From Microbacterium sp. (lineage in GTDB: Bacteria > Actinomycetota > Actinomycetes > Actinomycetales > Microbacteriaceae): a stretch of 64,000 nt of DNA. Location: NCBI GenBank assembly GCA_013823625.1, contig PNMM01000002.1:641061-705060 (forward strand), given 5' to 3'. Both the position numbers and the translations under genes were made by a program. Each line of letters opens with the position of its first letter. Position 1 is the stretch's first letter. Below, one piece after another: positions 43,450 to 59,640 of the stretch. Under the pieces are notes generated by a model. The model saw only the letters and a program-made list of their open reading frames with translations, did no database searches and was not told the origin of the DNA.

Positions 43450-43750
43450 GTCTGCGCGGTGAGCGAAGCGCGGCGACCGCGCTCGGCGCGCGGAGCGCGC
43501 TGCGCCGCAGGGGCGGCGGCGCAGCCAGAAGTCGACACCGAGGGGATGACGGGAATCGAACCCCGCAGACGCGTCAGCGTCTGCGCCTCGAGCGAAGCGC
43601 GGCGACCGCGCTCGGCGCGCGGAGCGCGCTGCGCCGCAGGAGCGGCGGCGCAGCCAGAAATCAACACAGAGGGGATGACGGGAATCGAACCCCGCAGACG
43701 CGGCAGCGTCTGCGCGTCGAGCGTGAGCCGGTGAGGTTTGGGCGGGCCAG
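43450..43750. repeat. 129-bp tandem repeat (two full copies plus a shortened third leading into the tRNA) carrying tRNA-Gly 3'-end fragments
   Basis: Landmarks GTCTGCGC at 43450/43579/43708 and AGGGGATGACGGGAATCGAACCC at 43541/43670 (and in the intact tRNA at 43751). Confidence 0.85.
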
Positions 43751-43821
43751 AGGGGATGACGGGAATCGAACCCGCGCTATCAGCTTGGGAAGCTGAAGTT
43801 CTGCCATTGAACTACATCCCC
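43751..43821 (-). tRNA. tRNA-Gly (anticodon CCC)
   Basis: GGGGATGTAGTTCAATGGCAGAACTTCAGCTTCCCAAGCTGATAGCGCGGGTTCGATTCCCGTCATCCCCT; folds as a cloverleaf with anticodon loop TTCCCAA. Confidence 0.95.
43780..43821. repeat. attL: 42-bp direct repeat TCAGCTTGGGAAGCTGAAGTTCTGCCATTGAACTACATCCCC
   Basis: Identical to 59599-59640. Confidence 0.95.
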
Positions 43822-43864
43822 GAAGGGCCTTGTTTCTTGAAACAACGGGCCTCTTGCAGTGACC

Positions 43865-43892
43865 ACTTTACCTGCCGCGTGCCTTCCATCAA
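43865..43892 (-). promoter_or_regulatory. Candidate element-borne promoter for tRNA-Gly (TTGATG-16 bp-TAAAGT on the - strand)
   Basis: -35 at 43892-43887, -10 at 43870-43865, reading toward the tRNA 5' end at 43821. Confidence 0.5.
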
Positions 43893-43909
43893 GGCACGCC
43901 CAAGGCACG
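43878..43909. promoter_or_regulatory. Candidate integrase arm-type sites (AAGGCACG: one inverted, two direct)
   Basis: CGTGCCTT 43878-43885, AAGGCACG 43891-43898 and 43902-43909. Confidence 0.5.
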
Positions 43910-44010
43910 GCCCCGTGACGCTCTGAAGTTGTCCACCCACCCCTTGGTTTCGCGCCCCCTCGCGCGTAACAGGTAGTGAGGGGAAGTGACCCTCGGAAAC
44001 GAGGGGACCA

Positions 44011-44829
44011 ATGTCGAGGCGCAAGCAGCCCGCCGACCACCTTGATACATATCGTGCAATCTCGCCCCCCTCGCTTATGGATGAACTCCGTGGTGTGATT
44101 CAGCAGTACGGAGAAAGAAACACTCTGAGGCTCTGCCGCAAGGGGAAGTTGGTTACCCGAGCCGATGGCAGCTCGTACCGGGTTGCCTGTGGGAACAAGT
44201 GGTCGTGTCCCCTGTGCTCTCCTTATTGGCTCGGTGAGCATGCGCGGGACATCTCGCGAGTGCTTCAATCAGCGCCCACCGTTTTCTACGTGACCTTCAC
44301 GCTCGCGCGAGAAAGCGGAGGCATCCCGCAGATCGGATCGCTCGACTCCCTCCTTCAAACGTGGTCGGCGGCGTTCTCCACTGGCTCCTGGATGTCTGAT
44401 TTTCGAGATCGCTCGGAGCTACTCGGCTGGGTGCGAACTGTCGAGGTCACCTTCCGGGAGGGAGGATTCCACCCCCACATCCATGCCGCGTTCCTCTTTG
44501 CCGCACACCTCCATGGAGACCATGTGCAGTCGCTCCTTCAGCGTTGGCTCGTAGCCGCCGAGCGGCGAGGTCTACGTGCCTCAGACAAGGCACAGCGGGG
44601 CTACTACGTGGCACCTGGACGGGACCGGGAGAAGGTCGCCTCCTACCTCTGCAAGCAGAGCGCGATTCGACGGTCGAGCGGTGGGAAGGGACGAACTCCG
44701 GGTGATCTGCTACACAGCGTGGCCAAGACTGGCGACGCTGACGATCTACAGGCCTTGCTGGCCTTCCACCGAGCCGTTGCGGGCAAGCAGAAGATCTCTA
44801 CTTCCCGAGGCTTCTGGAATCTTGCATGA
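44011..44829 (+). CDS. Rolling-circle replication initiator (HUH, Rep_1-like)
   Basis: GGFHPHIHAAFLF HUH motif, KVASYLCKQ catalytic-Tyr motif, CGNKWSCPLC. Confidence 0.8.
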   Translation: MSRRKQPADHLDTYRAISPPSLMDELRGVIQQYGERNTLRLCRKGKLVTRADGSSYRVACGNKWSCPLCSPYWLGEHARDISRVLQSAPTVFYVTFTLARESGGIPQIGSLDSLLQTWSAAFSTGSWMSDFRDRSELLGWVRTVEVTFREGGFHPHIHAAFLFAAHLHGDHVQSLLQRWLVAAERRGLRASDKAQRGYYVAPGRDREKVASYLCKQSAIRRSSGGKGRTPGDLLHSVAKTGDADDLQALLAFHRAVAGKQKISTSRGFWNLA

Positions 44830-44913
44830 CCTGGCGTTGGTCCGAGGGCGCACTCGCGCGTATCAACAAGTGAAGAAAGAGGATCGTCTTCGCAATCACG
44901 ACGGGAGAACGCA

Positions 44914-45183
44914 ATGGAATTCAGGAACTACCTGCTCTACAACGAAGGTGACATCAAGAAGGGGCTCCGGGGTCCGGTGACGCAGGTGCTCCTCGCGCTC
45001 AACGAACTCGATGGAAACCTGTTCGAGAACATGATGGCCATCCGTACTGGGCTGCCCGTCAAGTACGTCCGGGAAGTAATTGTGGAACTGATGGATGAAG
45101 GCCTGTTCAAGCCCGAGCCGTCGCCGCATGAGATGAGTACCGAGGACGACGGCTCCTTCGAGGATCTTCTGAGGGACGTGTAG
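44914..45183 (+). CDS. Small winged-helix-like protein
   Basis: 89 aa, good start context, helix-rich LDGNLFENMMAIRTGLPVKYVREVIVELMDEGLF. Confidence 0.6.
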   Translation: MEFRNYLLYNEGDIKKGLRGPVTQVLLALNELDGNLFENMMAIRTGLPVKYVREVIVELMDEGLFKPEPSPHEMSTEDDGSFEDLLRDV

Positions 45184-45267
45184 TGCAAGCAACTCGTTTC
45201 GAGAAACGGAGTTCTGGCGACCTGGCACGATTCGAGAAACGATTGTCGGGTGACCCCTGCAGATTTG

Positions 45268-45285
45268 TGTAGGGGCACCCCTACA
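45268..45285. promoter_or_regulatory. 18-bp palindrome TGTAGGGGCACCCCTACA
   Basis: 8-bp perfect arms around CA, in the intergenic region before 45422. Confidence 0.55.
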
Positions 45286-45421
45286 TTCGGTGGCGCGAGA
45301 AGCTTCGATTAGGCAATCCTCACCGACCTAGGCGAGATCGAGCTCCCGAGAATGTCGGACGACCACGGCAGACTGCAAGCCGCCCGAGACGGCCGATTGG
45401 GCTCTCAAAGGAGCGCCTGCC

Positions 45422-47431
45422 ATGGCACCATCAGTGATTATGCGAAGACTCTCCGTGTCTGTGAGCCAGGACCACCTGCTCAATCAGGTGAAGTCACCAA
45501 GGCACGGCCTCTTGGAGCTGGTCTGGAATGCATTCGACGCGGACGCAACTCAGGTTGATGTTGTCGCGGAAGAGAACTCCCTCGGGAGCATCACTCGTGT
45601 CACGGTTTCTGACAACGGCACAGGGATCACGGCCGAGCAGGCCGAGCGTCAGTTCGATCAGCTGGGCAACTCTTGGAAGGCTCAACAGAAGATCAGCGAT
45701 AAGGGTAGACAGTTTCACGGCCAGTACGGCCGAGGACGTTGGTCCGCGTTCGGCATCGGAGCGCAAGCGTCTTGGGTTTCCGTCGCCGAAAGAATCACTG
45801 GGGTAGTTGAGAAGCTTCGAATCGATGGCCAGCGCGATGACCTCGCTGGTTTCGACTACGAGGAACCAGAATCAGCGCCTGGTCAGCAGCGAGGGACAGT
45901 CGTCACCATCGCTGGGATTCTAGACAACGCACAGCGCTACTTCCTCAGCCCGGAGCCCCTCACCGACCTGACGACCCAGTTCGCCACATACGTCGAAAAC
46001 TATGGGATCACGATCACGTTCAACGGGACAAAAGTTGACCCGAAAGCGATGCAAACGAGGTCCCACGATCTCGTAGTTGAGGTTCCAACCGCGACCCCGT
46101 CCCGCGTCGAGGTTCGTGTCGTCGAGTGGGAGCTAGCTGTTCACCGCGCCATCTACTTCATGGACAGCAACGGAGCAATCCTGCATGAGATGCGGGCGGG
46201 CATACATGCGCCTTCGTTCGACTTCACGGCTTACGTTCGGTGGGCTCCTGCTCGGGAAAGACAGTCAGAGTTGCTCCTAGAGGAGAGCGCTCCGGACCCG
46301 ATCCCCGCGATCATTCGCGCTGTTCGGAGTGCGCTAAGGGACTACTTCGCGGCTCGTGACAAAGAAGAGCGCTCCAAGGTCCTAGAAAGGTGGAAGAGCG
46401 AGAAGTCCTACCCGTACAAGGGTGACGCTGCGAACACAGTTGAGCGTGCAGAACGTGAGCTCTTCGAGGTAGTGGCTCTGACCGCAGCCAAGGCGATTGA
46501 GCCGATGGAACAGCGGGAGCGACGGCTCTCGTTTGCGCTGATTCAGCAAGCACTGAGCCAGAATCCTCAGGCAGTGCGCGTGATTCTCCGGGACGTGCTC
46601 GACATGCCCGAGCGCAAGCTCAACGACTTGACCTCGTTGCTAGAGCGAACGAGTCTGAGCTCCATCGTCTCGATGGCGAAGACAGTATCGAACCGACTTG
46701 ACTTCGTCCGAGGTCTTGAACACATGGTGTTCGACAAGCAGACGAAGAAGGTCCTTCTCGAACGAAGTCAGCTTCACAAGATCCTGGCTGCTGAAACCTG
46801 GATCTTGAAGGAGGAGTACTCGCTATCTGTCAACGACGAGACGCTCACCACCGCACTTCGCGATCATCTCTCGGAGTTTGGCCGCGACGACGTAACCACT
46901 GCAGACGCGCAGGCCTCGGAGGTGCTCGATACAGATGGCAAGCGTGTCGTGGTTGACCTAATCCTCAGCTCGATCGTTCCGCAGACAGCGAATCGACGTG
47001 AGCATGTTGTTATTGAGTTGAAGAGGCCCACGGTCCACATCAATGCGGCGGGGCTCCTCCAAGCGAACAAGTACGCCGTGGCCGTCAGAAACGATCCTCG
47101 TTTTGAGAAGGTTCAGGTGTCTTGGGAGTTCTGGATTATCGGCGACACAATCGCCGAAGACGCCAAGAACCTACTCGACGAGACAGGACTGTTTGGCAGT
47201 ACTGGGAAGGGCGACAACCTCCCCATCCGCGCGGTCACGTGGGCGCAGGTCATCGAAGACGCGAAGCATCGACTCAAATTTGTCGAGAAGGCTCTGGAGA
47301 TCGAGCCGAGCACTTCTAGTGGTCTGACCTACTTCCGAGAGAACTACTCGCAGTACATGCCCGACATCGACTCAGACGACGAGGCAGACGAGCTGGACAG
47401 CGCCGCCGAGGCACCAGAATCGACGAGGTAG
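45422..47431 (+). CDS. MORC-like GHKL ATPase with predicted C-terminal PD-(D/E)xK nuclease
   Basis: LLELVWNAFDADA, VSDNGTGI, GQYGRGRWSAFGIGAQ; C-terminal VVVDLILSS...HVVIELKRP. Confidence 0.78.
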   Translation: MAPSVIMRRLSVSVSQDHLLNQVKSPRHGLLELVWNAFDADATQVDVVAEENSLGSITRVTVSDNGTGITAEQAERQFDQLGNSWKAQQKISDKGRQFHGQYGRGRWSAFGIGAQASWVSVAERITGVVEKLRIDGQRDDLAGFDYEEPESAPGQQRGTVVTIAGILDNAQRYFLSPEPLTDLTTQFATYVENYGITITFNGTKVDPKAMQTRSHDLVVEVPTATPSRVEVRVVEWELAVHRAIYFMDSNGAILHEMRAGIHAPSFDFTAYVRWAPARERQSELLLEESAPDPIPAIIRAVRSALRDYFAARDKEERSKVLERWKSEKSYPYKGDAANTVERAERELFEVVALTAAKAIEPMEQRERRLSFALIQQALSQNPQAVRVILRDVLDMPERKLNDLTSLLERTSLSSIVSMAKTVSNRLDFVRGLEHMVFDKQTKKVLLERSQLHKILAAETWILKEEYSLSVNDETLTTALRDHLSEFGRDDVTTADAQASEVLDTDGKRVVVDLILSSIVPQTANRREHVVIELKRPTVHINAAGLLQANKYAVAVRNDPRFEKVQVSWEFWIIGDTIAEDAKNLLDETGLFGSTGKGDNLPIRAVTWAQVIEDAKHRLKFVEKALEIEPSTSSGLTYFRENYSQYMPDIDSDDEADELDSAAEAPESTR

Positions 47432-47465
47432 CAGCCCAGCGCAAGTGCTGCTCCACTACGGCGGG

Positions 47466-47927
47466 TCAACGGTTGCTCTTGGCAAAGACCCGTTCGAGTT
47501 CGTCCTCCAGTGCCTTTGCCCATGCGTGGAAGTCGTCCGCGACGCCCATCGCCCCCAGCTCGTCGCGCCAGTCGGGAAGCCAGTTTCGAGTGATTAGCTC
47601 CTGCTTGTCCTTCGCCAGATACAAGCGGTAGGGGTATGCGGCATCACGTGCTTTGCCAAGTTTCTCCCCATCAGACTTGGTGTAGGGCGGCGCATCCTGA
47701 ATGGCGCGCGACTCCATTTCGCGGGACCAGTCGTAGAGGACGCGGTGGTACGACCAGAGCGCGTGCTGGGCGGCGTCCCGACGACTATCGCGGGCGATGC
47801 CGCGCTGAGTCTTGGCGGCGATGAGTGCGCCTAACACGCCACCGCCTAGCCCCGTGATCAGCGACACCGCAATCGTCAGCCCGGCAGGGATCGCGTTGGG
47901 ATCTGACACCGCATCGGCAATGAGCAT
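47466..47927 (-). CDS. Small membrane-anchored protein of unknown function
   Basis: N-terminal TM LTIAVSLITGLGGGVLGALIAA plus soluble domain. Confidence 0.6.
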   Translation of the reverse strand: MLIADAVSDPNAIPAGLTIAVSLITGLGGGVLGALIAAKTQRGIARDSRRDAAQHALWSYHRVLYDWSREMESRAIQDAPPYTKSDGEKLGKARDAAYPYRLYLAKDKQELITRNWLPDWRDELGAMGVADDFHAWAKALEDELERVFAKSNR

Positions 47928-48138
47928 TCCCTCACTCTAGAGAGCAACTCCAAATCGTGGAGCACGGCCGGGCGAACCGCAGGCACGCAGATTGGAGATG
48001 CGGGGGCTTACACACCCGAACCACTCTGCCCGAACCGTTTCGCTGTTCCGTCTCGTAAACGGTGGTTTCTGTGCGATAAGACGGTGGGCGCTGCCGACCC
48101 GCTGAACTCGGTCGAGCGGCCTCTCAAAACTCCTCTCT

Positions 48139-48167
48139 TTACTTATTTCCAGAAACGAGTTATGATC
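48139..48167 (+). promoter_or_regulatory. Candidate promoter of the resolvase gene with a dyad operator in the spacer
   Basis: TTTACT-17 bp-TATGAT; the spacer contains ATTTCCAGAAAC. Confidence 0.6.
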
Positions 48168-48196
48168 GATGAGTAGTGATAATCACGGAGGTGCGC

Positions 48197-48766
48197 ATGG
48201 CAGAAGTCGGGTACGTGAGGGTTTCGACCGCAGATCAGAGTCTCGATCTCCAGCTCCAGGCAATGGAGAAGGCGGGCATAGCCAAGGTCTTCAAGGACCA
48301 CGGGGTCAGCGGAACTCTCGCATCTCGACCTGCCCTAGACGAGGCGCTCGCGTACGTGCGCGAAGGAGACGTGTTCACCGTGTGGAAGCTCGACCGACTG
48401 GGTCGAAGCACGAAGAACGTCTTGGAGGTCATCGACCGACTGAGCGAGGCCGGAGTCGGCTTCCGAAGCCTGACTGAGGGGCTCGACACGACCGGCCCTA
48501 TGGGCAAAGCAATGCTCACGGTGCTCGCGGCCTTTAACCAGCTCGAACGTGACGTGATTGTCGAACGCACGAAGGCGGGCCTCGATGCAGCTCGCGCAAA
48601 GGGCCGCGTTGGTGGTCGCCCCCGCGTCATGGACGAGAAGAAGATCAACACTGCCCGTGCGCTATACGAGTCCGGCAATCACACTGTTGCCGAGATCGCG
48701 TCCATGATGGGCGTCGGCACCGCGACGGTTTACCGCTACTTGGCCTCCGGTCGCGCAGCGAGCTGA
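48197..48766 (+). CDS. Serine recombinase (resolvase/invertase family)
   Basis: GYVRVSTADQSLDLQ, WKLDRLGRS, C-terminal HTH; GGAGG upstream of the ATG. Confidence 0.93.
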   Translation: MAEVGYVRVSTADQSLDLQLQAMEKAGIAKVFKDHGVSGTLASRPALDEALAYVREGDVFTVWKLDRLGRSTKNVLEVIDRLSEAGVGFRSLTEGLDTTGPMGKAMLTVLAAFNQLERDVIVERTKAGLDAARAKGRVGGRPRVMDEKKINTARALYESGNHTVAEIASMMGVGTATVYRYLASGRAAS

Positions 48767-48772
48767 CGGCTC

Positions 48773-49102
48773 CTAAGGGCTCTCGTCGTATAGCGGCTTC
48801 AACAGTTCGCCCAGGGGGATGTCGAACGCCCGAGCGATTCGATACCAGGTCTCCAGGTTCCCGCGCGAGGCAGGCTTCTTCGGATTACGGCGAGGCCTGC
48901 CCGATTCGATAGACACCAGAGTTGCGCGACCGACGCCGGAGCGAGCCGCCAGCTCGTCGTATGACCAGTCACGTTCTACACGAATGCGTCGAAGGTGCAG
49001 AGACAACGCTGCGAAGTTCGCAGGCGGCACCGGACCGTCGTCATCTTGCACACAACCAGTGCATCGGGAAGCGCTCTCGCCACTGTCATGGCTAGCCATC
49101 AC
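48773..49102 (-). CDS. XRE-family transcriptional regulator
   Basis: DWSYDELAARSGVGRATLVSIESGRPRRNP HTH. Confidence 0.88.
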   Translation of the reverse strand: MMASHDSGESASRCTGCVQDDDGPVPPANFAALSLHLRRIRVERDWSYDELAARSGVGRATLVSIESGRPRRNPKKPASRGNLETWYRIARAFDIPLGELLKPLYDESP

Positions 49103-49118
49103 AATTATGGCTAGCCAT
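49088..49118. promoter_or_regulatory. Twin perfect palindromes ATGGCTAGCCAT (probable XRE operators)
   Basis: 49088-49099 and 49107-49118, 19 bp apart start to start, between divergent genes. Confidence 0.8.
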
Positions 49119-49139
49119 CACCCACGGAAGGGGGTCGCC

Positions 49140-50261
49140 ATGACCCTGTACGCACTTCATCACGACTGGATCGACGGGCACGTTGCGCAAGCGCCCGTCG
49201 GCATCTGGAACGAGGACGGTGAAAGCTACTACCCGCCCTTCACCGTCCACCTGCAGCATCGCGGATACCGTGCGGGGTCACGCCCGCCCGAGCGGTCCTG
49301 GGCGGGGCACCTGGAGTACCTCACCGACTCTTCGTCGGCGTACAACGCCAACTGGAGCATCGTCGATTCGGAACTGACCATGCCAGAGATACTCATCACG
49401 CTCCAGGAGCGCTTCTTCGCCGTAGAGCACCCCGAGCCGACACTGAGCGGCAGGGCCGACGGCCTGCCGGGGCACAAACAAGATTCTGAGGGGCGGGAAG
49501 AAGATTCTGACCTGCCCAAAGAAGATTCCGTCGGGCGCAAAGAAGATTCTGGCGAGGACGAGGGCAAGACTTCCGCCTTCACTCCAGCTCACCGATACGT
49601 GATCGCCCAGTCGTGGTGGGTGGCCAGCGAACTCGCTCGACGCCACCCTGATCTCGTCATCCATGAGATGCACCCAGGAGGCGGAATGTACGACTGCCTT
49701 GCGCTTCTCTCGCCGGGCGATTTGAAGCCTTTCGTCCAGTTGAACCGGGTCGGCACCATTCACGTCATGTCCACACCTGAGTACCGCACGACATGGGCCG
49801 AGGCGCTGGAAGCAGCGTCGCCACACGCCGTGGTGAAGGAAATCGAGCAGGTTGCGGACCTGAAGATGCCCGCTAAGGCTCCCGCCAGTACCCCTCGGAC
49901 GCTCGCCTACCGGTTCATAGCGGCAACCCTGAATGCGACTCTGAATGACAGGTACAGATGGGATGCCCGCAATGAGTTCTTCGACTCATCGGAGGACAAC
50001 CCGACAGTGCTCAACGGCTACCTCGCTGGGTTCCCAGAAGTGCGCCGGAGCCTTCCCGCTACGCCGCAGATGGGGCTCTGGCACGAGCCCGAGTCGCATT
50101 ACTGGGCGCTCCTGCGAAACGACAGTCCAGTCGCCATCGTCAGCATCGAAGGTGTCGTCTACAGGCCCGACCGGCAAATCGACCTCACCACTGAGTACCG
50201 GCGTCACGACTCGCGGATGCAACCAGTAGTAGCCTCGGCGCTCGCCGACGTGCTGCCCTGA
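49140..50261 (+). CDS. TY-Chap2-like putative peptide-chaperone protein
   Basis: HEMHPGGGMYDCLALL signature recalled from the TY-Chap families; two related-looking halves joined by an acidic repeat linker. Confidence 0.5.
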   Translation: MTLYALHHDWIDGHVAQAPVGIWNEDGESYYPPFTVHLQHRGYRAGSRPPERSWAGHLEYLTDSSSAYNANWSIVDSELTMPEILITLQERFFAVEHPEPTLSGRADGLPGHKQDSEGREEDSDLPKEDSVGRKEDSGEDEGKTSAFTPAHRYVIAQSWWVASELARRHPDLVIHEMHPGGGMYDCLALLSPGDLKPFVQLNRVGTIHVMSTPEYRTTWAEALEAASPHAVVKEIEQVADLKMPAKAPASTPRTLAYRFIAATLNATLNDRYRWDARNEFFDSSEDNPTVLNGYLAGFPEVRRSLPATPQMGLWHEPESHYWALLRNDSPVAIVSIEGVVYRPDRQIDLTTEYRRHDSRMQPVVASALADVLP

Positions 50262-50275
50262 CCAAAGGAGAAGCC

Positions 50276-50623
50276 ATGGGTGCCGAACTCAACAACATCC
50301 CCCAGCTCGACGGCTGGGTCAACCTGACCGAAGCAGCGGAAATGCTCGGTATCACGCGCCAGCACGCCTTCAAGAAAGTGCGCCAGGCAAACGACGGTCA
50401 CCCGAGCGGCTGGAGAACGATCCGCCGCGTCGGGAGTAAGCCCATGTATGTCATCAGTACCGCGGAGATCGCGGATCTCCAGTCCGCCAGTGACAGCAAG
50501 ACCGACTTGATGAAAGGCACCCTCTCACGAGCAGACCGCGAGCTTTGGCTAAGGAATCATCGACTGCCAGACTCCACGACGGACGAGGACATCCTCATGG
50601 CCATGGGCTCGGGGTTCAACTGA
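50276..50623 (+). CDS. Small HTH (MerR/excisionase-like) DNA-binding protein
   Basis: VNLTEAAEMLGITRQHAFKKVRQA. Confidence 0.6.
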   Translation: MGAELNNIPQLDGWVNLTEAAEMLGITRQHAFKKVRQANDGHPSGWRTIRRVGSKPMYVISTAEIADLQSASDSKTDLMKGTLSRADRELWLRNHRLPDSTTDEDILMAMGSGFN

Positions 50624-50639
50624 TCACCGGCTACCCCGA

Positions 50640-50831
50640 CGGATTAGGGGCTCGCTCGATGATGTCCGAGGGCGCGTCGCCAACGTCAATATGGGGCGAT
50701 TCGTCCGAAGATACGATCGTCTGGTTGACCTCGCTGCAGAGAAAGGGCTTCACGATTGCGGGATGCTCCCGCTCGTAGTCTCGGCGCTCGCGGACCCGTT
50801 GCCATCACCGAATCGGTCGCTCGACGCCTAG
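50640..50831 (+). pseudogene. Decayed C-terminal fragment related to the 49140-50261 protein
   Basis: Frame reads ...RYDRLVDLAAEKGLHDCGMLPLVVSALADPLP vs intact ...RPDRQIDLTTEYRRHDSRMQPVVASALADVLP. Confidence 0.6.
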
Positions 50832-50839
50832 TGATCCGC

Positions 50840-53053
50840 TCACTCCATCGCCATCATCATCTCGTAGTGCCCGGTTTGGTCTGTCTTCGTGAAGATCTCT
50901 GCGAAAACTCGGAGGTAGACGTCCTTGCTCATATTCGAGGGTGAGTAGTCAAAGTCGTCTACAAAGGCATGAGAACCGTGGTGAAGCCAGGCGAGAAGAG
51001 CCTTGTATGCAAGTGCATCGTCCCCGACGCTGCTCTCCATGAGTTCATCCAGATCGGGGTAACTGCCAATTACGGTGAAGTAGTTCTCTAAGATGCGCCG
51101 GAGGACGTTCTCCAACCCAGCGTCACTTGGGCCATTGGTTGAGCTTGCCTCCCTGACCACTTGCCAGAGCCGTTGGTAGTTCGAGCGAACGAGGTTTCGG
51201 CCTGAGCCCGTAATGACGGTGTCGCCGGTGGCGTCGCGGCGTAGCTCATAGAAGCGACGCCCGGCAAGTAGCCCCTTCGAGCGGTCTCTGCCGCGTTCGT
51301 ACGTCAACTCTAGGTAGAACTGCGCGTTGTGGGTGAGTACCACCAACTGGGTCAAGCGACCAAGGCCATCGTGGACCGTCTGAATCAACCTCCGGACGAG
51401 GCTGCTGACGACGAAGAGCACGTCGCTGTCGAGGCTTGATATTGGATCGTCGATTACTGCCACGAGTTTTCGGGCGTCTGCGGTGGTGTGTCGACTTTCA
51501 AGTTGAACGTAGAAATAGAGAAAAGCAATGAAGGTGCGTTCTCCGTCGCTCAAAGTGTCTTCGACGGAGCTGCCGTCTGAGCGCTCCAACCGATAGGCGT
51601 CTTTCGCCGTAGTCGATGCGGCGAGGTTGAACCTTACGAATCCCACCTTTTTCAGCAGACTGTTGAGCCGTGCGATTGCGGGCGCTGATGATACGAGTTG
51701 CGCTTCAAGTGCTTGCGCTCGTTGACGGGACTGTTCGAGAGAGTGGGACGCCCCTTCAAGCTCTGTGGATAGTGTCTGCCGTTTCGTCTCCGTGGCGCTG
51801 ACCACTCCGAGAAAGCGGCTCAACTCAGCCGACATGATGTTCCAAGCGAAGTACTCCCAGCATCTCGATACGAGTGCAGCCTTGGCCTCGCGCCTGTTGG
51901 TGAGACGTTCGTTGTGCTCCAAGATGACGGAATTGGTTGCTGAGATCACACCGTTCAACTGCAGGATCAGTGTGTCAAGGTCCACTAGCTCGACAACCAG
52001 CGTCGGACTCTGGACCTTCGCAGCGACAACACCTTCGTTCGAGACGATCCCCGCTCGCAGTTCCGCCGCGACGGCGGCAAGTTCTGTCTGGTTGACCATC
52101 GTCGAATCGAGTCCCTCCAGCGAACCGATGATGGCTTCCAGGACTCGATGGCTTTCTCTGGCTTGGACTTGGAAGGTATTGAGAGCACTCCGCTTGATCT
52201 CGTACTCGTTGTCAAAGAACTCAGCGAGGTGCTGGAGGAAGTTCGTGGGCAACTCCTGTTGGCAGAAGGGGCATAGATCGTCTGATGAACTGACGAATCT
52301 ACGGCCTTCGGCAACCCAGTCCTGGTTGTCAAGCCGCTCGATCACCGAGGCGAGTGAGACCTCTGAGCTTCCCGCGATTGGGATGCCGAGTAACGCACAA
52401 CCGGGGGAAGAGAACACTGCCGCGTAACTTGGGGCTGGGGCAATCGGATCGATTCGTTGTCCGGCTTGATCGAAAGCGCTGACTGCCTCTCGCAAGAGAG
52501 CCTCAACCTCAGGCGGGTCAGTCTTCACAGTGCCGATGAGCTTCTCGGCAAACACCTCTCGACTTCCGTTGAAGCCGTCGAACATGCTCCGAAGTTCAAC
52601 AGGCATCTTCTCCCGGGCTGCCCATGCCGCAGTTAGCAGGCTCTCCCTGGCGACTCGAATCTGGTTGTTGATGGCCCCCAGGTCCTGCGTCAGAGACCTC
52701 ACTGACTCTTCATGCTGCGCGATATCTCCTGCGGGCTTAGTCAGGCTCGTGTACTCAGCCCGCGCTGTCGGATCTTCGTCGTCAAGAACGAACACGCCGG
52801 GGAGTTGATCGGCTTCTTGGAGCGTCGATGAGATGTAGTCGCGGTTGAAGACATGGACGTCAACTTCAGGGCTGCCTCCACGGAGTTCATACTTTGTGCC
52901 TGGGAACTGCACCGTGTCTTGAAGGATCCGCGAGATTGTCGTCTTCCCAGTTCCATTCGGTCCAAAGACGAAGTTGAATCTGTCCAAGTCTTCAAGCGCA
53001 CAGTCGGTCCCCGAAAAGCTTGGCGCTCCGGTCAGCTGGATTCGACTAAGCAT
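50840..53053 (-). CDS. AAA_13-family ATPase (RloC/PrrC-like)
   Basis: FNFVFGPNGTGKTTISRIL, VFNRDYI, central CPFCQQELP, LSDGERTFIAFLYF, VAVIDDPISSLDSDVLF. Confidence 0.8.
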   Translation of the reverse strand: MLSRIQLTGAPSFSGTDCALEDLDRFNFVFGPNGTGKTTISRILQDTVQFPGTKYELRGGSPEVDVHVFNRDYISSTLQEADQLPGVFVLDDEDPTARAEYTSLTKPAGDIAQHEESVRSLTQDLGAINNQIRVARESLLTAAWAAREKMPVELRSMFDGFNGSREVFAEKLIGTVKTDPPEVEALLREAVSAFDQAGQRIDPIAPAPSYAAVFSSPGCALLGIPIAGSSEVSLASVIERLDNQDWVAEGRRFVSSSDDLCPFCQQELPTNFLQHLAEFFDNEYEIKRSALNTFQVQARESHRVLEAIIGSLEGLDSTMVNQTELAAVAAELRAGIVSNEGVVAAKVQSPTLVVELVDLDTLILQLNGVISATNSVILEHNERLTNRREAKAALVSRCWEYFAWNIMSAELSRFLGVVSATETKRQTLSTELEGASHSLEQSRQRAQALEAQLVSSAPAIARLNSLLKKVGFVRFNLAASTTAKDAYRLERSDGSSVEDTLSDGERTFIAFLYFYVQLESRHTTADARKLVAVIDDPISSLDSDVLFVVSSLVRRLIQTVHDGLGRLTQLVVLTHNAQFYLELTYERGRDRSKGLLAGRRFYELRRDATGDTVITGSGRNLVRSNYQRLWQVVREASSTNGPSDAGLENVLRRILENYFTVIGSYPDLDELMESSVGDDALAYKALLAWLHHGSHAFVDDFDYSPSNMSKDVYLRVFAEIFTKTDQTGHYEMMMAME

Positions 53054-56000
53054 CGAGAATCTCCAGCGGAGGGAGAGATTTCACAATCTTCACCGTTTCG
53101 ACACTCACCGTCACGATGCGCGCGAGTAGGTCGAGAATGTAGCGAGGATTGCCCTGTTCTACCGCCCAATCGTTTGGGTCGTTGACGATGCCAGAGGCCT
53201 TATCAGTTTTGACCTGGTAACGCTCCATGACCCAGTCGAGGGCAGAACGGGAGCCGAGCATGTACTCTTGCGCTTCTTCCGGGATGCCGGACAGTGTGAT
53301 CCCGCTGTTGTAGATCACTTTGGTTTTGTCTACGGTGCGACCTGTCTTTGAGTACTTCATCTTCTCGACGCGGTAGCTCGCGTTTGATGCACGCTGCTCT
53401 TGCAGCGGGTACGGCTCGACCGCCTCGTAGTCGAGGTGCAGCTGCATGAGCTGGCGACCCGCCTCCACGAAGGAGCTGAAGGCTCTGACTTTCGGAATGC
53501 GCGGCAGCTTCTTCTTCAAGTCGGCCCCGAATTGCTCTCGGTAATCAGGACTGTGCAGAACGCCATACACGTAAGCGAAGATCGCGTCCTTGGTAACGTC
53601 GGGGCCGAAGGACTTCTGGTAGTCAGCAAGTATCTCGTCCGTCACATTGTCAATTCGTCGGTAGGGATCGTCGCCTTCGTCAAGTGCACGGAAGAGGCTG
53701 TCATCTTCTTCGCGGGCCTCAATTACGTGCCGTGGGAAGAACTGAACTGCGCTGATCCCGGCTAGCCCTAGGTCTGGGACTACATCCGTCACTAACGCCA
53801 TGAACGGCGGCGCGGAGTTTCCTGGCGCAGGGACCGCGATTCCAAGCGCGCGAGAACCATCCGGGAAAAAGCGCGCGGCGATGGAAGGGCGATCAATCAG
53901 GTCCTGGTCGCCCGTCAGATGTACTCGTGTGAATGGGCGGTAGAGGGCGATGCGTGGCTGGGCAGGCTCGTCATCGAACAAGCGTCCTCTTTCCAGCCGG
54001 GCGACCAGCTTGTCACTCCAACTGATCTTCCTGGGATCGTTGTTCCGTTTCCACGGTAGCCCGGCCTTCTCAGCCGAGAGTTTGGCTTGGACTTCGGAGT
54101 TGAAGACTTGCTTGGTTGCAGCCTCGTTGGACTTTAGTGATGCCTTCGAGAACGAATAGACCCAGGCATCTCTGTTCGTCTTGATTCCGTTCGCATTGGC
54201 GTGAAAGATGTGGGGGACCGTTGCGCCGCTGCCTGATTCCATTGGGTTGAACGCTGCGAAGTCATCACGACGTTGATTCACCCAGTCGCCTTCAGCATTG
54301 GGAGTGATTACCTGCCAATCGACGCCGGACAAGCCTCTTGCTTCCCTCACCAGCCTGAGCTTCTCGTCACGCGAGAGGTAATCCCCGATGTCTCGGTAGT
54401 GGATGACGGCGGGCCGAGACGCTCCTCCGCGCTTTACGAGCAGGAACACCGCCACCGTTGCTCGGCTCCCTGCGCCGAAGACCTTGCCGCCTTCCCGGCG
54501 CGACTGCTCTCCAGCGGTTCGCTGGTTGCCACGTAGGTTGAAGACGTAAATCGAGTCGAATTCCTCGGCGAGGGATACCCGAAGGCCATCCGCCGTGTTT
54601 CCTTCGATGAAGCCGCCGTTTGTAACGAAAGCGACGATTCCTTTGTCGCCGATGCGATCTGACGACCATCGAATCGCGCGGATGTAGGAGTCATAGAGAT
54701 TGTTCTTCAGGGTTGCGGTAGAACGAGCTGCGTAGGTGGCCGCGATCCTCGCGTCGAGAGTCGGATACTTCAGGTTCTGGTTTTCCGCATTGCCGCTCTC
54801 TTGCCCAGCTGAGTACGGAGGGTTCCCGATCACAACCCGAATGTCGAGAGCCTTCTGTGCCTCGACTCGCTCGTTGTTTTCTGGGAAGACCCCCTGACCG
54901 TCGAGCTCATCGTTGGCTTCGTTCATCTGGAAGGTATCGGTGAGGACAATGCCGTTGAACGGTTCGTAGTCACCGCCGCTGAGGGCGTGGAATGTCTCTT
55001 CGATATTGATGGCGGCAACGTAGTAGGCGAGGAGCACGAGTTCGTTGGCGTGCAATTCGTACCGATACTTCCGCGCCAAGTCCTCCGGCTTGATCAGCCC
55101 GGACTGGAGCAGGCGGACGATGAAGGTGCCCGTGCCCGTGAATGGGTCGAGCACGTGGACCCCCTCGTCGGAGAGGCTCGCACCGAACTCCGACTTCAGG
55201 GCATCGTCCACAGAGTGGATGATGAAGTCCACGATCTCGTTAGGGGTATAGACGATCCCGAGTCGGTCGCTCGTTCCCGAGAATGCCGTCTGGAAGAACT
55301 TCTCGTACAGTTCCTTGACAATTTGCTGTTTCGCGGCGGCGTCAGTGATTCCGGCAGCGCGAGTGCGCACGGACTCGTAGAACTTGTCGAGCTTCTCGGT
55401 TTCCTTTTCCAGGTGCTGCTCTTCGAGAGCGTCGATCATTCGCTGCATCACCTGGGACACCGGGTTGTGGTCACTGAAGGCGTAGCCCTCGAAGAGCGCG
55501 TCAAAGACAGGCTTGGTGATGAGGTGTTGCGACAGCATCTCGATGGCATCCCGTTCGGTGATGAACGGATTCAGGTTGTCCTGCAGGCCTTTGAGGAACC
55601 GAGCGAACTCGTCGTGAAGCGTGCCGTCGGATCCCTCGACTAGTGCCCTGATGCGCGTGATGTGGTCAGAGGCGATGCCCGCGACATCCTTGGCCCAGTT
55701 CTCCCAGTAGCGGCGCTCGCCGACCTTCTGGACGATCTTGGCGAGGATGGCGTCGCGCCACTGGTCGAGGGCCGGGAAGTCGAGAGTGACGGATGTATCG
55801 CCAGCCTTGTCTTTGCCGTCCTCGCTACCGCCTCCGCCCACTCCGATGACCGAGAGCTTGCCCTCGGTGGACTTGGTGAGGTCGATCTTGTTGACCATTG
55901 CGTCGAAGCGCTCGTCGTGGGCGCGAAGTGCCTGAAGCACCTGCCAGACGACCTTGTACTTCTTGTTGTCGTTGAGCGCCGTTGCCGGGTCCATGTCGGC

Positions 56001-57809
56001 AGGTACGCCGATGGGAAGGATGACGTACCCGTACTTCTTGCCTTCGAGCTTGCGCATCACGCGACCGACCGACTGCACGACATCGACGACCGAGTCGCGC
56101 GGGTTGAGGAACATCACTGCGTCGAGGGCAGGAACGTCAACGCCCTCGGAGAGGACTCGCGCGTTGGTGAGGATGCGGGCGTTGCCCGCTCCAGGGTCTT
56201 GCTTCAGCCAGTCGAGTTCCTTGTTGCGGTCGAGCACGTTGTAGGTGCCATCGACGTGACGAACCTCGACATCGAGAAGTGAGTCCGCGTCTTCGTCGAG
56301 CGCTTCGATCTCGGCCTCGACGACCTTCTCGAAGAGGTTCGCGATCTTCTTCGATTCGTTGATGTTGCGAGCGAAGGCGACGGCGCGCTTCATGGGCTCG
56401 GGGTCGAGGGAGAACTCTTCGGGGGTGAGCGAGCGCTTGGAGAGCCCGTTCCAGCAGCCGACGATCTTCGCGGCGTCGTCCAGTGTCAGCTCGTTGTTCT
56501 CGTCGGCCAGGAGCCGTTGGAAGCGCTTCGAGATGTAGGACTCGTCCACGGCGAGCACGAGCACTTTGTAGTCGGTGAGTCGGCCCATGGAGACGGCCTC
56601 TCCGAATCCGAGGCGGTGGAACTCCTCGCCGTAGAAGGCAGGGTTGTTCATGTCGGTGAGGACCGCCCCAGCTTCTTCCGCCTTCGACTTGCTGGCGTCG
56701 GCGTAGATGCGCGGTGTCGCGGTCATGTAGAGCCGCTTCTTGGCCTTGATGTAGTCCTGGTTGTGAACCTTGACGAACGCGGACTCTTCATCCCCCGCGA
56801 GCGTGACCCCCGTCGTGCGGTGGGCTTCGTCGCAGATGATCAGATCGAAATCCGGGATGCCCTTGCCCTGCGCCTGAGCGACAACGTCGATGGACTGATA
56901 GGTCGAGAAGACCACGGTGATGCCATCGAAGCCGTCAGGGACCTCGGCGAACTTCTGCACCAGCTTCGTCGTGTTCGTCGTCGCCGGGTACGCGAGGTCG
57001 GTCACCGGGATGTCTTCATCCGACTTGCGCTTACCGACACTCACGTCCGAGCAGACGGCGAACGACCGCAAGGGCAGAGCGGACTCGATGGTCCACTCCT
57101 TCAACGTCTGGGAGAGCAGCGAGATCGAGGGGACGAGGAAGAGTACAGTGCCACCACGGGGGACGACCTCCTCGACGAGCTTCAGGCTCGTGAACGTCTT
57201 TCCCGTGCCGCAGGCCATGATCAGCTTTCCTCGGTCGGCAGCCTGGAAGCCCTCGATGACTTTCGAGATTGCCAGCACCTGGTGAGGGAACGGCTCCTTA
57301 GCGGCCTTCTTCGTCAGCTCACCCGGTCGAGCGAAAGAGAACTGCTCCCAGTCGATAGAAGATTCGTCGAGGTCCTGAACGCGAAGCCGCTGCACCGGAG
57401 GGTTCTGATTCTCGACCGCGTCTTCGGCATTGCGACCCCAGTTGTCGCTCGTAGAGATCACCAGTCGCGCCGAGAACTCAGGCTTGCCGTCGAGGTTCTT
57501 GCTGGAAGCGGCAAGGAACGAGTCCAGCATCGGCTTCGTGACCGTCGTGGAAGGGTCGAAGAACTTGCACTGGATCGCGGTCAGCTCGCCCGTATCCCGA
57601 GCACGCGCGACGAGGTCGATCCCCGTGTCGCGCCGGTTGCCGCGCTGCGGGTAGTCGCTCCACATCCAGACATCGCTGTAGAGCTGCGCGTACTGCGGCT
57701 CAGTATTGAGGTAGGCCTGCATGAGTCGCTCGAACCGGTCGCCCTTGTCGCGCTCGTCGAACGACACCGCCCTGAACTCGCTCAGGATGTCGTGGATGCT
57801 CGTAGCCAT
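53046..57809 (-). CDS. Single-polypeptide restriction-modification enzyme, type ISP-like (nuclease-helicase-methyltransferase-TRD)
   Basis: GIDLVARARDTGELTAIQCKFF nuclease, ACGTGKTFTSL, ICDEAH, QSVGRVMRK, DPFTGTGTFIVRLL, VIGNPPYSAG, C-terminal specificity-like region. Confidence 0.93.
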   Translation of the reverse strand: MATSIHDILSEFRAVSFDERDKGDRFERLMQAYLNTEPQYAQLYSDVWMWSDYPQRGNRRDTGIDLVARARDTGELTAIQCKFFDPSTTVTKPMLDSFLAASSKNLDGKPEFSARLVISTSDNWGRNAEDAVENQNPPVQRLRVQDLDESSIDWEQFSFARPGELTKKAAKEPFPHQVLAISKVIEGFQAADRGKLIMACGTGKTFTSLKLVEEVVPRGGTVLFLVPSISLLSQTLKEWTIESALPLRSFAVCSDVSVGKRKSDEDIPVTDLAYPATTNTTKLVQKFAEVPDGFDGITVVFSTYQSIDVVAQAQGKGIPDFDLIICDEAHRTTGVTLAGDEESAFVKVHNQDYIKAKKRLYMTATPRIYADASKSKAEEAGAVLTDMNNPAFYGEEFHRLGFGEAVSMGRLTDYKVLVLAVDESYISKRFQRLLADENNELTLDDAAKIVGCWNGLSKRSLTPEEFSLDPEPMKRAVAFARNINESKKIANLFEKVVEAEIEALDEDADSLLDVEVRHVDGTYNVLDRNKELDWLKQDPGAGNARILTNARVLSEGVDVPALDAVMFLNPRDSVVDVVQSVGRVMRKLEGKKYGYVILPIGVPADMDPATALNDNKKYKVVWQVLQALRAHDERFDAMVNKIDLTKSTEGKLSVIGVGGGGSEDGKDKAGDTSVTLDFPALDQWRDAILAKIVQKVGERRYWENWAKDVAGIASDHITRIRALVEGSDGTLHDEFARFLKGLQDNLNPFITERDAIEMLSQHLITKPVFDALFEGYAFSDHNPVSQVMQRMIDALEEQHLEKETEKLDKFYESVRTRAAGITDAAAKQQIVKELYEKFFQTAFSGTSDRLGIVYTPNEIVDFIIHSVDDALKSEFGASLSDEGVHVLDPFTGTGTFIVRLLQSGLIKPEDLARKYRYELHANELVLLAYYVAAINIEETFHALSGGDYEPFNGIVLTDTFQMNEANDELDGQGVFPENNERVEAQKALDIRVVIGNPPYSAGQESGNAENQNLKYPTLDARIAATYAARSTATLKNNLYDSYIRAIRWSSDRIGDKGIVAFVTNGGFIEGNTADGLRVSLAEEFDSIYVFNLRGNQRTAGEQSRREGGKVFGAGSRATVAVFLLVKRGGASRPAVIHYRDIGDYLSRDEKLRLVREARGLSGVDWQVITPNAEGDWVNQRRDDFAAFNPMESGSGATVPHIFHANANGIKTNRDAWVYSFSKASLKSNEAATKQVFNSEVQAKLSAEKAGLPWKRNNDPRKISWSDKLVARLERGRLFDDEPAQPRIALYRPFTRVHLTGDQDLIDRPSIAARFFPDGSRALGIAVPAPGNSAPPFMALVTDVVPDLGLAGISAVQFFPRHVIEAREEDDSLFRALDEGDDPYRRIDNVTDEILADYQKSFGPDVTKDAIFAYVYGVLHSPDYREQFGADLKKKLPRIPKVRAFSSFVEAGRQLMQLHLDYEAVEPYPLQEQRASNASYRVEKMKYSKTGRTVDKTKVIYNSGITLSGIPEEAQEYMLGSRSALDWVMERYQVKTDKASGIVNDPNDWAVEQGNPRYILDLLARIVTVSVETVKIVKSLPPLEILDA

Positions 57810-57992
57810 GCGGTGCCCTTCGAAGCGTTGACCTTGGTGCCACGGTATCGGTCGCCCAAGACAACTCGGCGTGACCGGCGGGCGGTTTCTGTCGTGTTCT
57901 CACCATTCCTACGCGCCCAAGATCGGTTCTCTGTTTCTGGGTATCGGCGCTCGCCGAGTGATCGATCCGGGATGCTCTCGCCGGAGGTGCTC

Positions 57993-58262
57993 ATGGGCTC
58001 TTGGGTTGCGCGGTATGAAGAGGGCTACGTGTCTGATGACGGCAGTGACGTGACCCTTGTGGAGGAGCTGCATCTCGCCATTCAGTGGAGCACCCCCGAG
58101 GCAGCTCTTCAGCACTGGGAGTCGCGTGACGACCTCAGAGGCCCCGATGTCGAGAGATTCGGCAACGGGCTTCAGCAGCTCCACGATGTGACGGAGCGCC
58201 CTGAGTTCAGGGCGCTCCGTGTTGCCTCGATCTGGAGACGGGTTACCTTCCAGAAGCTCTAG
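57993..58262 (+). CDS. Small uncharacterised protein
   Basis: GGAGG 5 nt before the ATG; stop shares CTAG with the convergent integrase stop. Confidence 0.55.
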   Translation: MGSWVARYEEGYVSDDGSDVTLVEELHLAIQWSTPEAALQHWESRDDLRGPDVERFGNGLQQLHDVTERPEFRALRVASIWRRVTFQKL

Positions 58263-59377
58263 CCCGACGTGGCGCTCGCCCCCCACGTCCCACCCATCAA
58301 GCGATTCACGTCATCAGCCACCTTGCGGTCGCGGTCTGCATCGGTGTGCTGATAGCGCATCGCAGACTGGAGGGAGCGGTGTCTACCGCGCGCCATCACG
58401 TCCTTGATCGGCGCTCCAGAAGCCGCGACCAAGGTCAAGCCAATGTGGCGGATGTCGTGAACATGGAAGTTTTCCAGTCCCGCCTTCGTCGCCGCGCTGC
58501 GCCAAGCCTTCTGGAGGGAGCTTCGCGGCATGCGCGGGCTCACGACACCAGGAAACATCGGAACAGCACCGATGCCGAGCGGCAGGCGATTGATCGCAGC
58601 GACACCAATTTCGAACAGGTATAGCTCTGCGCGCGCACCGGTCTTCGTCTCCGTGGTGTGTCCGAGGTTCGTCACCTGGCGCTCGATCCGAAGTTCGCCC
58701 GTCTTCCGGTTGAAGTCATTCGCGTTCAGCGCCACTACTTCCCCGAGACGAAGGTGTGCGGCGAACATGACCTCCAGCGCTTCGCGGTAGTAGACGCGCT
58801 TCGCACCAGTCGCACTGTTGACAACGACCTCCGCGGGGACATGTTCGAGTACCCGAAGGAAATCTTCTTTGGACCACGAGGGTCGAGGTTCGCCGACACC
58901 TTTGTTGAGGTCGAGCACTTGGCAGGGAGAGCGGCGAACGTACTTCCACTTCACGGCGTACTTCATGGCGCGGCGCAAGAACGCGTAGACGTTGCGCCGG
59001 GTCTCGGTCGGGCGTTGTGCGGCGAACCACTTGTCTACGGCCTCTTCGTCGAACTCCTCCATGCGCAGGTTCCCGAAAGCGGGCAGCAAGTGAACCTTCA
59101 AGTAGGAGCGGTTGTTTGCCAGCTCGCCTTGGGTAGCCGTCAGTTCGCGGTGCGCCATGTACTCGACCATGAAGTCCCGAAAGCGCGTCTTCCCCTTCCG
59201 TCCGTCCCAGTGCTCACCGCGCCGGATGTCTACCTGGATCTCGTCGAGACGTTGCTCCGCCTGACCCTTGGTATCGAAGGTCCCCGCCGATACTTGCTGG
59301 CCAGTCGGCAGCATGTACCGGGCCTGAAACCTCCCGCTCTTCAGCCTCCGAACATTGCCGTTCTTGTTTCTTGTCAT
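58259..59377 (-). CDS. Tyrosine site-specific integrase
   Basis: LRLGEVVAL Arg, HDIRHIGLT, GRHRSLQSAMRYQH catalytic residues. Confidence 0.95.
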   Translation of the reverse strand: MTRNKNGNVRRLKSGRFQARYMLPTGQQVSAGTFDTKGQAEQRLDEIQVDIRRGEHWDGRKGKTRFRDFMVEYMAHRELTATQGELANNRSYLKVHLLPAFGNLRMEEFDEEAVDKWFAAQRPTETRRNVYAFLRRAMKYAVKWKYVRRSPCQVLDLNKGVGEPRPSWSKEDFLRVLEHVPAEVVVNSATGAKRVYYREALEVMFAAHLRLGEVVALNANDFNRKTGELRIERQVTNLGHTTETKTGARAELYLFEIGVAAINRLPLGIGAVPMFPGVVSPRMPRSSLQKAWRSAATKAGLENFHVHDIRHIGLTLVAASGAPIKDVMARGRHRSLQSAMRYQHTDADRDRKVADDVNRLMGGTWGASATSG

Positions 59378-59463
59378 GTCAGACCTCCGCCGTCAATGCC
59401 CACCAGAGGGGTAGGCGTTTTCTGATACGCAGAAGTCGGGCGTTCGACAACGGTGCGCGCCTG

Positions 59464-59475
59464 GTTTCTGGAAAC
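59464..59475. promoter_or_regulatory. GTTTCTGGAAAC dyad (element motif) near the right end
   Basis: Same GTTTC-NN-GAAAC motif as 43832-43843 and 45196-45207. Confidence 0.6.
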
Positions 59476-59598
59476 GACTACAGGCACACCAAGGCACGCG
59501 CGGAACGGACTTCTCCGGCAAGAGACACGGAGTAGAAGAAAAAGGCCGGTCAGGGGGCTGGTTCGACGAGGTCAATTACCTGAGATCGCGGAGTGCAG

Positions 59599-59640
59599 TC
59601 AGCTTGGGAAGCTGAAGTTCTGCCATTGAACTACATCCCC
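59599..59640. repeat. attR: 42-bp direct repeat, orphan 5' half of tRNA-Gly
   Basis: Identical to 43780-43821; no 3' half follows. Confidence 0.95.

Follow-up and report, generated by a model that had tools for sequence, protein, structure and literature searches.

The window analysed here, a stretch of 64,000 nucleotides of DNA from Microbacterium sp., contains a gene which an initial annotation, made from the letters alone, had interpreted as a MORC/MutL-like GHKL ATPase joined to a C-terminal D...ExK nuclease and as a stand-alone defence effector. This raises the question whether such a fusion really exists and whether it acts against invading DNA, in the repair of the host genome or in the service of the genetic element which carries it. 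The open reading frame was confirmed exactly as it had been delimited (Table 1). It is present as a single copy in the genome, and the sequence AGGAG a few nucleotides 5' of its ATG is a plausible ribosome-binding site.

Table 1 Features of the GHKL-nuclease gene and of the surrounding element (positions refer to the window)
Feature	Position	Strand	Basis
Left attachment repeat, 5' half of intact tRNA-Gly(CCC) 43750-43821	43780..43821	-	Repeat and empty site in L130
Rep_1-like replication protein	44011..44829	+	Pfam Rep_1, E 5e-7, slightly below curated cut-off
89-aa ORF between rep and GHKL-nuclease gene	44914-45183		No family match
Two GTTTC-N2-GAAAC-type sites 33 bp apart, 5' of GHKL-nuclease gene	45196..45240	+	Sequence scan
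GHKL ATPase - PD-(D/E)xK nuclease fusion (paraMORC3 / GHKL-Shedu)	45422..47431	+	669 aa, ATG start
GHKL ATPase and S5 transducer, residues 13-318	45458..46375	+	VIA fold match, invariant motifs
PD-(D/E)xK nuclease domain, about residues 440-650	46739..47371	+	AlphaFold2 model, fold and profile matches
Predicted catalytic residues D512 (46955-46957), E532 (47015-47017), K534 (47021-47023)	46955..47023	+	Invariant in 83/83
Serine resolvase/invertase	48194..48766	+	Pfam Resolvase 6e-45
XRE-family regulator	48773..49102	-	Pfam HTH_3
AAA_13 / PrrC-like ATPase, PADLOC candidate system PDC-S06, co-resident defence gene	50840..53053	-	Pfam, PADLOC
Type ISP restriction-modification enzyme	53046..57809	-	Pfam Type_ISP_C 4e-95, ISP_coupler, Mrr_cat_2
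Tyrosine integrase	58259..59377	-	Pfam Phage_integrase 2e-15
Right attachment repeat, truncated copy of tRNA-Gly 5' half	59599..59640	-	Repeat comparison

The N-terminal half carries the GHKL motifs ELVWNAFDADA, DNGTGI and GQYGRGR and is matched by the Pfam families HATPase_c_3 (residues 29-127, E 1.8e-17) and HATPase_c (5.9e-7). The residues E32, N36, D39, D64-x-G66-x-G68, K86 and G103-x-G105-R106 are invariant among 83 aligned full-length homologs, which come from many phyla and from loci other than plasmids and phages and share 31-43 % identity with the query. An AlphaFold2 model of the whole protein based on this alignment reached a mean pLDDT of 88.7. Among solved structures the best VIA matches of this model are the ATPase modules of MORC3, MORC2 and MORC4 (Z about 19-20, residues 13-318), and Hsp90/TRAP1, SMCHD1 and MutL rank below them; a sequence search of the PDB with the 669-aa protein matched the ATPase half alone. 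A helical connector with the invariant residues W324 and Y330-P331 is predicted to join the GHKL-S5 half to the nuclease half. The initial assignment to a MORC/MutL-like group thus stands for the motifs and the fold, but not for MORC proper, which is ruled out because the MORC-specific S5 motif GhXhhpXXRhl occurs in none of the 83 homologs; the protein is a paraMORC. It has the fold of the GHKL-S5 module in common with the eukaryotic MORC2/3/4, and MORCs are not known to have a nuclease domain.

With the single query sequence Pfam reported no family over the C-terminus. GHKL proteins took up the match list of the full-length model, and the C-terminus was therefore modelled and compared on its own. 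The AlphaFold2 model of the isolated C-terminal 215 residues (pLDDT 81) has its best match in EndoMS/NucS (Z 9.8) and also resembles the Shedu nuclease of B. cereus (Z 8.3, 134 aligned), SduA of E. coli (Z 8.1, 143 residues aligned), AF1548, AspBHI, FokI and MspJI. The top matches are restriction-endonuclease folds, as the earlier reading of the C-terminus would have it, and HSDR_N_2, a family of the same fold, is touched by 60 of the 83 homologous C-terminal domains. The nuclease pattern E-D-ExK corresponds to E447/E464, D512 and E532-x-K534, with E447, D512, E532 and K534 invariant throughout the alignment. Because the motif residues of both halves are conserved in all full-length homologs, the alignment indicates a strong constraint on the GHKL and the nuclease motifs alike, well beyond what chance would produce, and it can hardly be doubted that the architecture of a GHKL ATPase with a PD-(D/E)xK nuclease is real and intact.

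EndoMS/NucS as the best fold match, together with MutL as the first match of the GHKL profile in the PDB, would suit a function in host repair, with a MutL-like ATPase and a NucS/EndoMS-like nuclease acting on mismatches or damage. This is most improbable in view of the distribution: the gene was found in 2 of 26 genomes of the genus, one copy being interrupted by an internal stop, and is absent from the other 24, and its homologs are mobile and lie among restriction and defence genes. A housekeeping role is ruled out by the same occurrence in 2 of 26 genomes.

Comparison of profiles by hhalign links the C-terminus to SduA_C (PF14082) proteins with a probability of 91 % over 145 columns and with D and ExK in register, whereas the N-terminal and middle thirds, used as controls, reached 0.2-0.3 %. 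PF14082 itself gave no Pfam match in the query, in 15 full-length members or in the 83 C-terminal domains. The SduA proteins of B. cereus and E. coli (PDB 8ti9, 8ps4, 8ps5) are alike in the nuclease fold and in the register of the catalytic D and ExK; however, they possess other N-terminal parts in place of the GHKL-S5 module.

The architecture was predicted and named paraMORC3 already in 2008 by Iyer, Abhiman and Aravind, who noted stand-alone members and reported a prevalence in proteobacteria and Bacteroidetes (PMC2292703). Set side by side with that description, the 669-aa protein shows GHKL with intact motifs and S5, a C-terminal nuclease of restriction-endonuclease fold with E-D-ExK and the absence of GhXhhpXXRhl, and both are often stand-alone, sporadic and laterally mobile; in contrast to the original, mainly proteobacterial and Bacteroidetes members it is actinobacterial. 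VcSduA of the V. cholerae VSP-II of WASA, a relative built in the same way (GHKL and DUF4263 nuclease), protects against Drexlerviridae and vibriophage X29, and the protection is lost in the mutants E27A (ATPase) and K557A (nuclease); the growth curves fit direct restriction and not abortive infection (PMC12137116). Its authors assigned it to Shedu type I-D in 2025. By their definition of this type, which is used here (PMC12137116), the 669-aa protein has an enzymatic (GHKL) N-terminal domain and a nuclease whose homology to SduA is supported by profile-profile comparison as well as by the fold, but the PF14082 match by Pfam is lacking. Both proteins are encoded by a single gene on a mobile island and consist of an N-terminal GHKL ATPase, a middle domain and a C-terminal PD-(D/E)xK nuclease with both active sites intact. 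They differ in the response to the SduA_C profile and in the distance from the GHKL glutamate to the nuclease lysine, which is 502 residues here and 530 in VcSduA when compared by the published mutant numbers. What is new is a further, actinobacterial member; both the architecture and the protection that a relative gives against phages have been published (PMC2292703, PMC12137116).

Vibrio genomes contain close homologs as well as a distant sister group (L145-L151), and none of these has the residue numbering of VcSduA. The sister group shares 22-27 % identity and the same layout from GHKL to D...ExK, with a shortened motif III region. Pfam SduA_C had no match in the genomes which carry it; the PF14082 matches in Vibrio lay in genomes other than those with homologs or the sister group.

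The GHKL region is also shared with the BbrUII/HgiDII restriction enzymes (NCBIfam NF050001), and the PADLOC REase_II models match it too. It is nevertheless very unlikely that the protein is an ordinary type II restriction enzyme of this sort, with a fixed cut sequence and self-protection by a methyltransferase. The NF050001 match covers residues 30-142 only and stays at 55 bits against a cut-off of 550, a cognate methylase gene does not adjoin, and the type ISP enzyme of the same element has a nuclease of its own. Moreover, no constant methylase neighbour emerged across the 88 homolog loci.

Clustering of the open reading frames around these 88 loci revealed no constant partner of any kind, in line with the single-gene architecture proposed at the outset. 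Matches of tblastn over at least 80 % of the protein comprise 34 plasmid records and two Pasteurella phages, in one of which the gene sits among phage genes. Scanning the genomes of bacteria and archaea for the pattern yielded 422 related stretches, and the 80 that were kept include Actinomycetota, proteobacteria, Planctomycetota, Acidobacteriota, Verrucomicrobiota, Chloroflexota and one cyanobacterium. Some homologs from the same taxonomic family share only 31 % identity with the query and are thus less similar than those of Glycomyces and Kribbella (41-43 %), as expected for a laterally moving gene. The commonest neighbour clusters, found at 7-11 of the 88 loci, resemble type I restriction-modification operons (HsdS-/HsdR-like), calls which rest on member sequences and were confirmed by Pfam families for locus L044 only. 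This Microbacterium homolog, among the closest, lies downstream of HsdS/HsdR genes, and an Arthrobacter homolog (L042), likewise among the closest, is flanked by McrC-like and FRG-domain genes. Four loci have a large type ISP- or helicase-like open reading frame in common. A Psychrobacter homolog adjoins an LlaMI-type restriction pair and Drt2, and the homolog on plasmid pGal_E78 of Phaeobacter (L031) has a 4-bp overlap with a type ISP gene. The neighbourhood survey which the initial annotation had proposed as a check thus led to plasmids, phages, an integrative element and restriction systems and not to housekeeping contexts. These settings fit a self-sufficient defence gene travelling in defence islands and mobile elements.

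The gene itself was claimed to have an accessory location, and this was borne out. A perfect repeat of 42 nt, the 5' half of tRNA-Gly(CCC), is found at 43780-43821 and 59599-59640, with the intact tRNA gene at the left end. The empty site is seen in another genome of the genus (L130), where the left-flank gene is followed without interruption by tRNA-Gly and by the right flank, which contains a dcd-like gene. Owing to these repeats and the empty site, the region is an integrative element of about 15.8 kb in tRNA-Gly(CCC); its G+C content is lower than that of the DNA to its left. The GHKL-nuclease gene lies between the rep and resolvase genes, and the short open reading frame upstream of it may encode a small DNA-binding regulator. 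The element also codes for a small 153-aa protein, a TY-Chap2 protein and an HTH-like protein.

The 238-bp gap upstream of the GHKL-nuclease gene contains two palindromic sites, an exact one at 45196-45207 (GTTTCGAGAAAC) and a copy with one mismatch at 45229-45240. The exact form GTTTC-N2-GAAAC occurs five times in the whole genome, three times of these inside the element, which makes up about 0.65 % of it. The other two exact sites precede rep (43832-43843) and the integrase gene (59464-59475), and a copy with one mismatch (48145-48156) overlaps a promoter-like sequence of the resolvase gene. A sigma-70 scan found no promoter directly 5' of the GHKL-nuclease gene on its own strand, although the consensus says little for an actinobacterium. 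The upstream region therefore looks regulated, as had been suggested, but its sites are common to other promoters of the element and not its own. The repeat is a candidate operator of an element-wide regulator, perhaps bound by the XRE protein. The simplest reading is that one element-encoded regulator would control replication, recombination and the nuclease together.

The position between rep and resolvase, the sites nearly confined to the element and in front of rep, GHKL-nuclease, resolvase and integrase genes, and the many homologs on plasmids could also mean that the nuclease serves the element itself, by excluding competing plasmids or integrative elements or by cutting during its own transfer, and is not directed at phages. 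The chance of this is small, as homologs occur in many unrelated contexts and the relative with the same architecture restricts phages (PMC12137116).

Taken together, the gene is considered, with a probability of about 80 %, to encode a GHKL-Shedu (paraMORC3) nuclease which works against invaders as a single-gene system and belongs to the cargo of the integrative element, and the stand-alone defence effector of the initial annotation agrees with the nuclease fold and the homolog contexts, its role in this host being presumed. This reading is based on two enzymes supported by fold and motifs, the hhalign result with its low controls, the stand-alone position in 88 loci and a sporadic and mobile distribution (plasmids, phages, the integrative element, two of 26 genomes). 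Furthermore, type I restriction-modification, McrBC, type ISP, LlaMI-type systems and Drt2 are among the neighbours of the homologs, and VcSduA protects against phages with both of its active sites required (PMC12137116). Counted against it were the failure of Pfam SduA_C with the query and all homologs scanned, the differing spacing relative to VcSduA as estimated from residue numbers, and the repair enzyme EndoMS/NucS, which for the predicted model comes slightly ahead of Shedu.

By analogy to VcSduA, for which an entwined clamp has been modelled, and to GHKL relatives, the anti-invader nuclease would dimerise, and on binding ATP its GHKL domains would come together as a clamp that encircles DNA or grips another factor. 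Through the S5 domain and the helical connector this closure could be relayed to the paired nuclease domains and switch them on at the invading DNA, so that the clamp state or the hydrolysis cycle would license the C-terminal nuclease to cut phage or plasmid DNA. For self-protection the nuclease would remain inactive as long as the clamp has not encountered some trait of the incoming DNA, such as ends, topology or a phage protein; trigger and target are likewise suggested by VcSduA and the GHKL relatives. Given the lack of a dedicated methyltransferase partner, the distinction between self and non-self would seem to rest on some trait of DNA or phage and not on a methyl mark. A more specific version is speculative and rather unlikely as a whole: a MORC-like ATP-driven clamp might respond to topology or compaction in the incoming DNA and license a fused NucS/Shedu-type nuclease of a branch undetected by current Shedu profiles, with its expression tied to the replication and recombination genes of the element via the shared operator.

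A clear and intact actinobacterial member is hereby added to a recently validated class of anti-phage nucleases. As Pfam SduA_C missed the nuclease domain in the sets scanned and PADLOC (2023) gave only weak matches to type II restriction enzymes, this branch is probably under-counted. Owing to the fold kinship with eukaryotic MORC ATPases, a simple assay in bacteria could be used to ask what is recognised by a clamp of the MORC type.

Several further observations concern the element and its borders. Integrative elements usually duplicate the 3' end of a tRNA gene. In this case (43750-59640) the 5' half is duplicated, and therefore the element supplies the 5' half and the upstream region of the intact tRNA-Gly gene. 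To the left of the tRNA (43460-43780) partial copies of the tRNA 3' end (GAGGGGATGACGGGAATCGAACC) are arranged in tandem units of about 130 bp, and tRNA-Gly has similar partial copies next to it in further genomes of the genus. The type ISP enzyme comprises an Mrr_cat_2 nuclease, a helicase, a methylase and a specificity domain, and its gene overlaps that of the PrrC-like AAA_13 ATPase (PDC-S06) by 8 bp (50840-57809, minus strand). On pGal_E78 the gene overlapping type ISP is the GHKL-nuclease homolog instead of the PrrC-like ATPase; the second-line effectors carried with type ISP enzymes may be interchangeable. Finally, near the start of the TY-Chap2 gene (49472-49572) an in-frame tandem repeat of 21 bp (AAAGAAGATTC unit) encodes a repeated acidic linker of the EEDS type.
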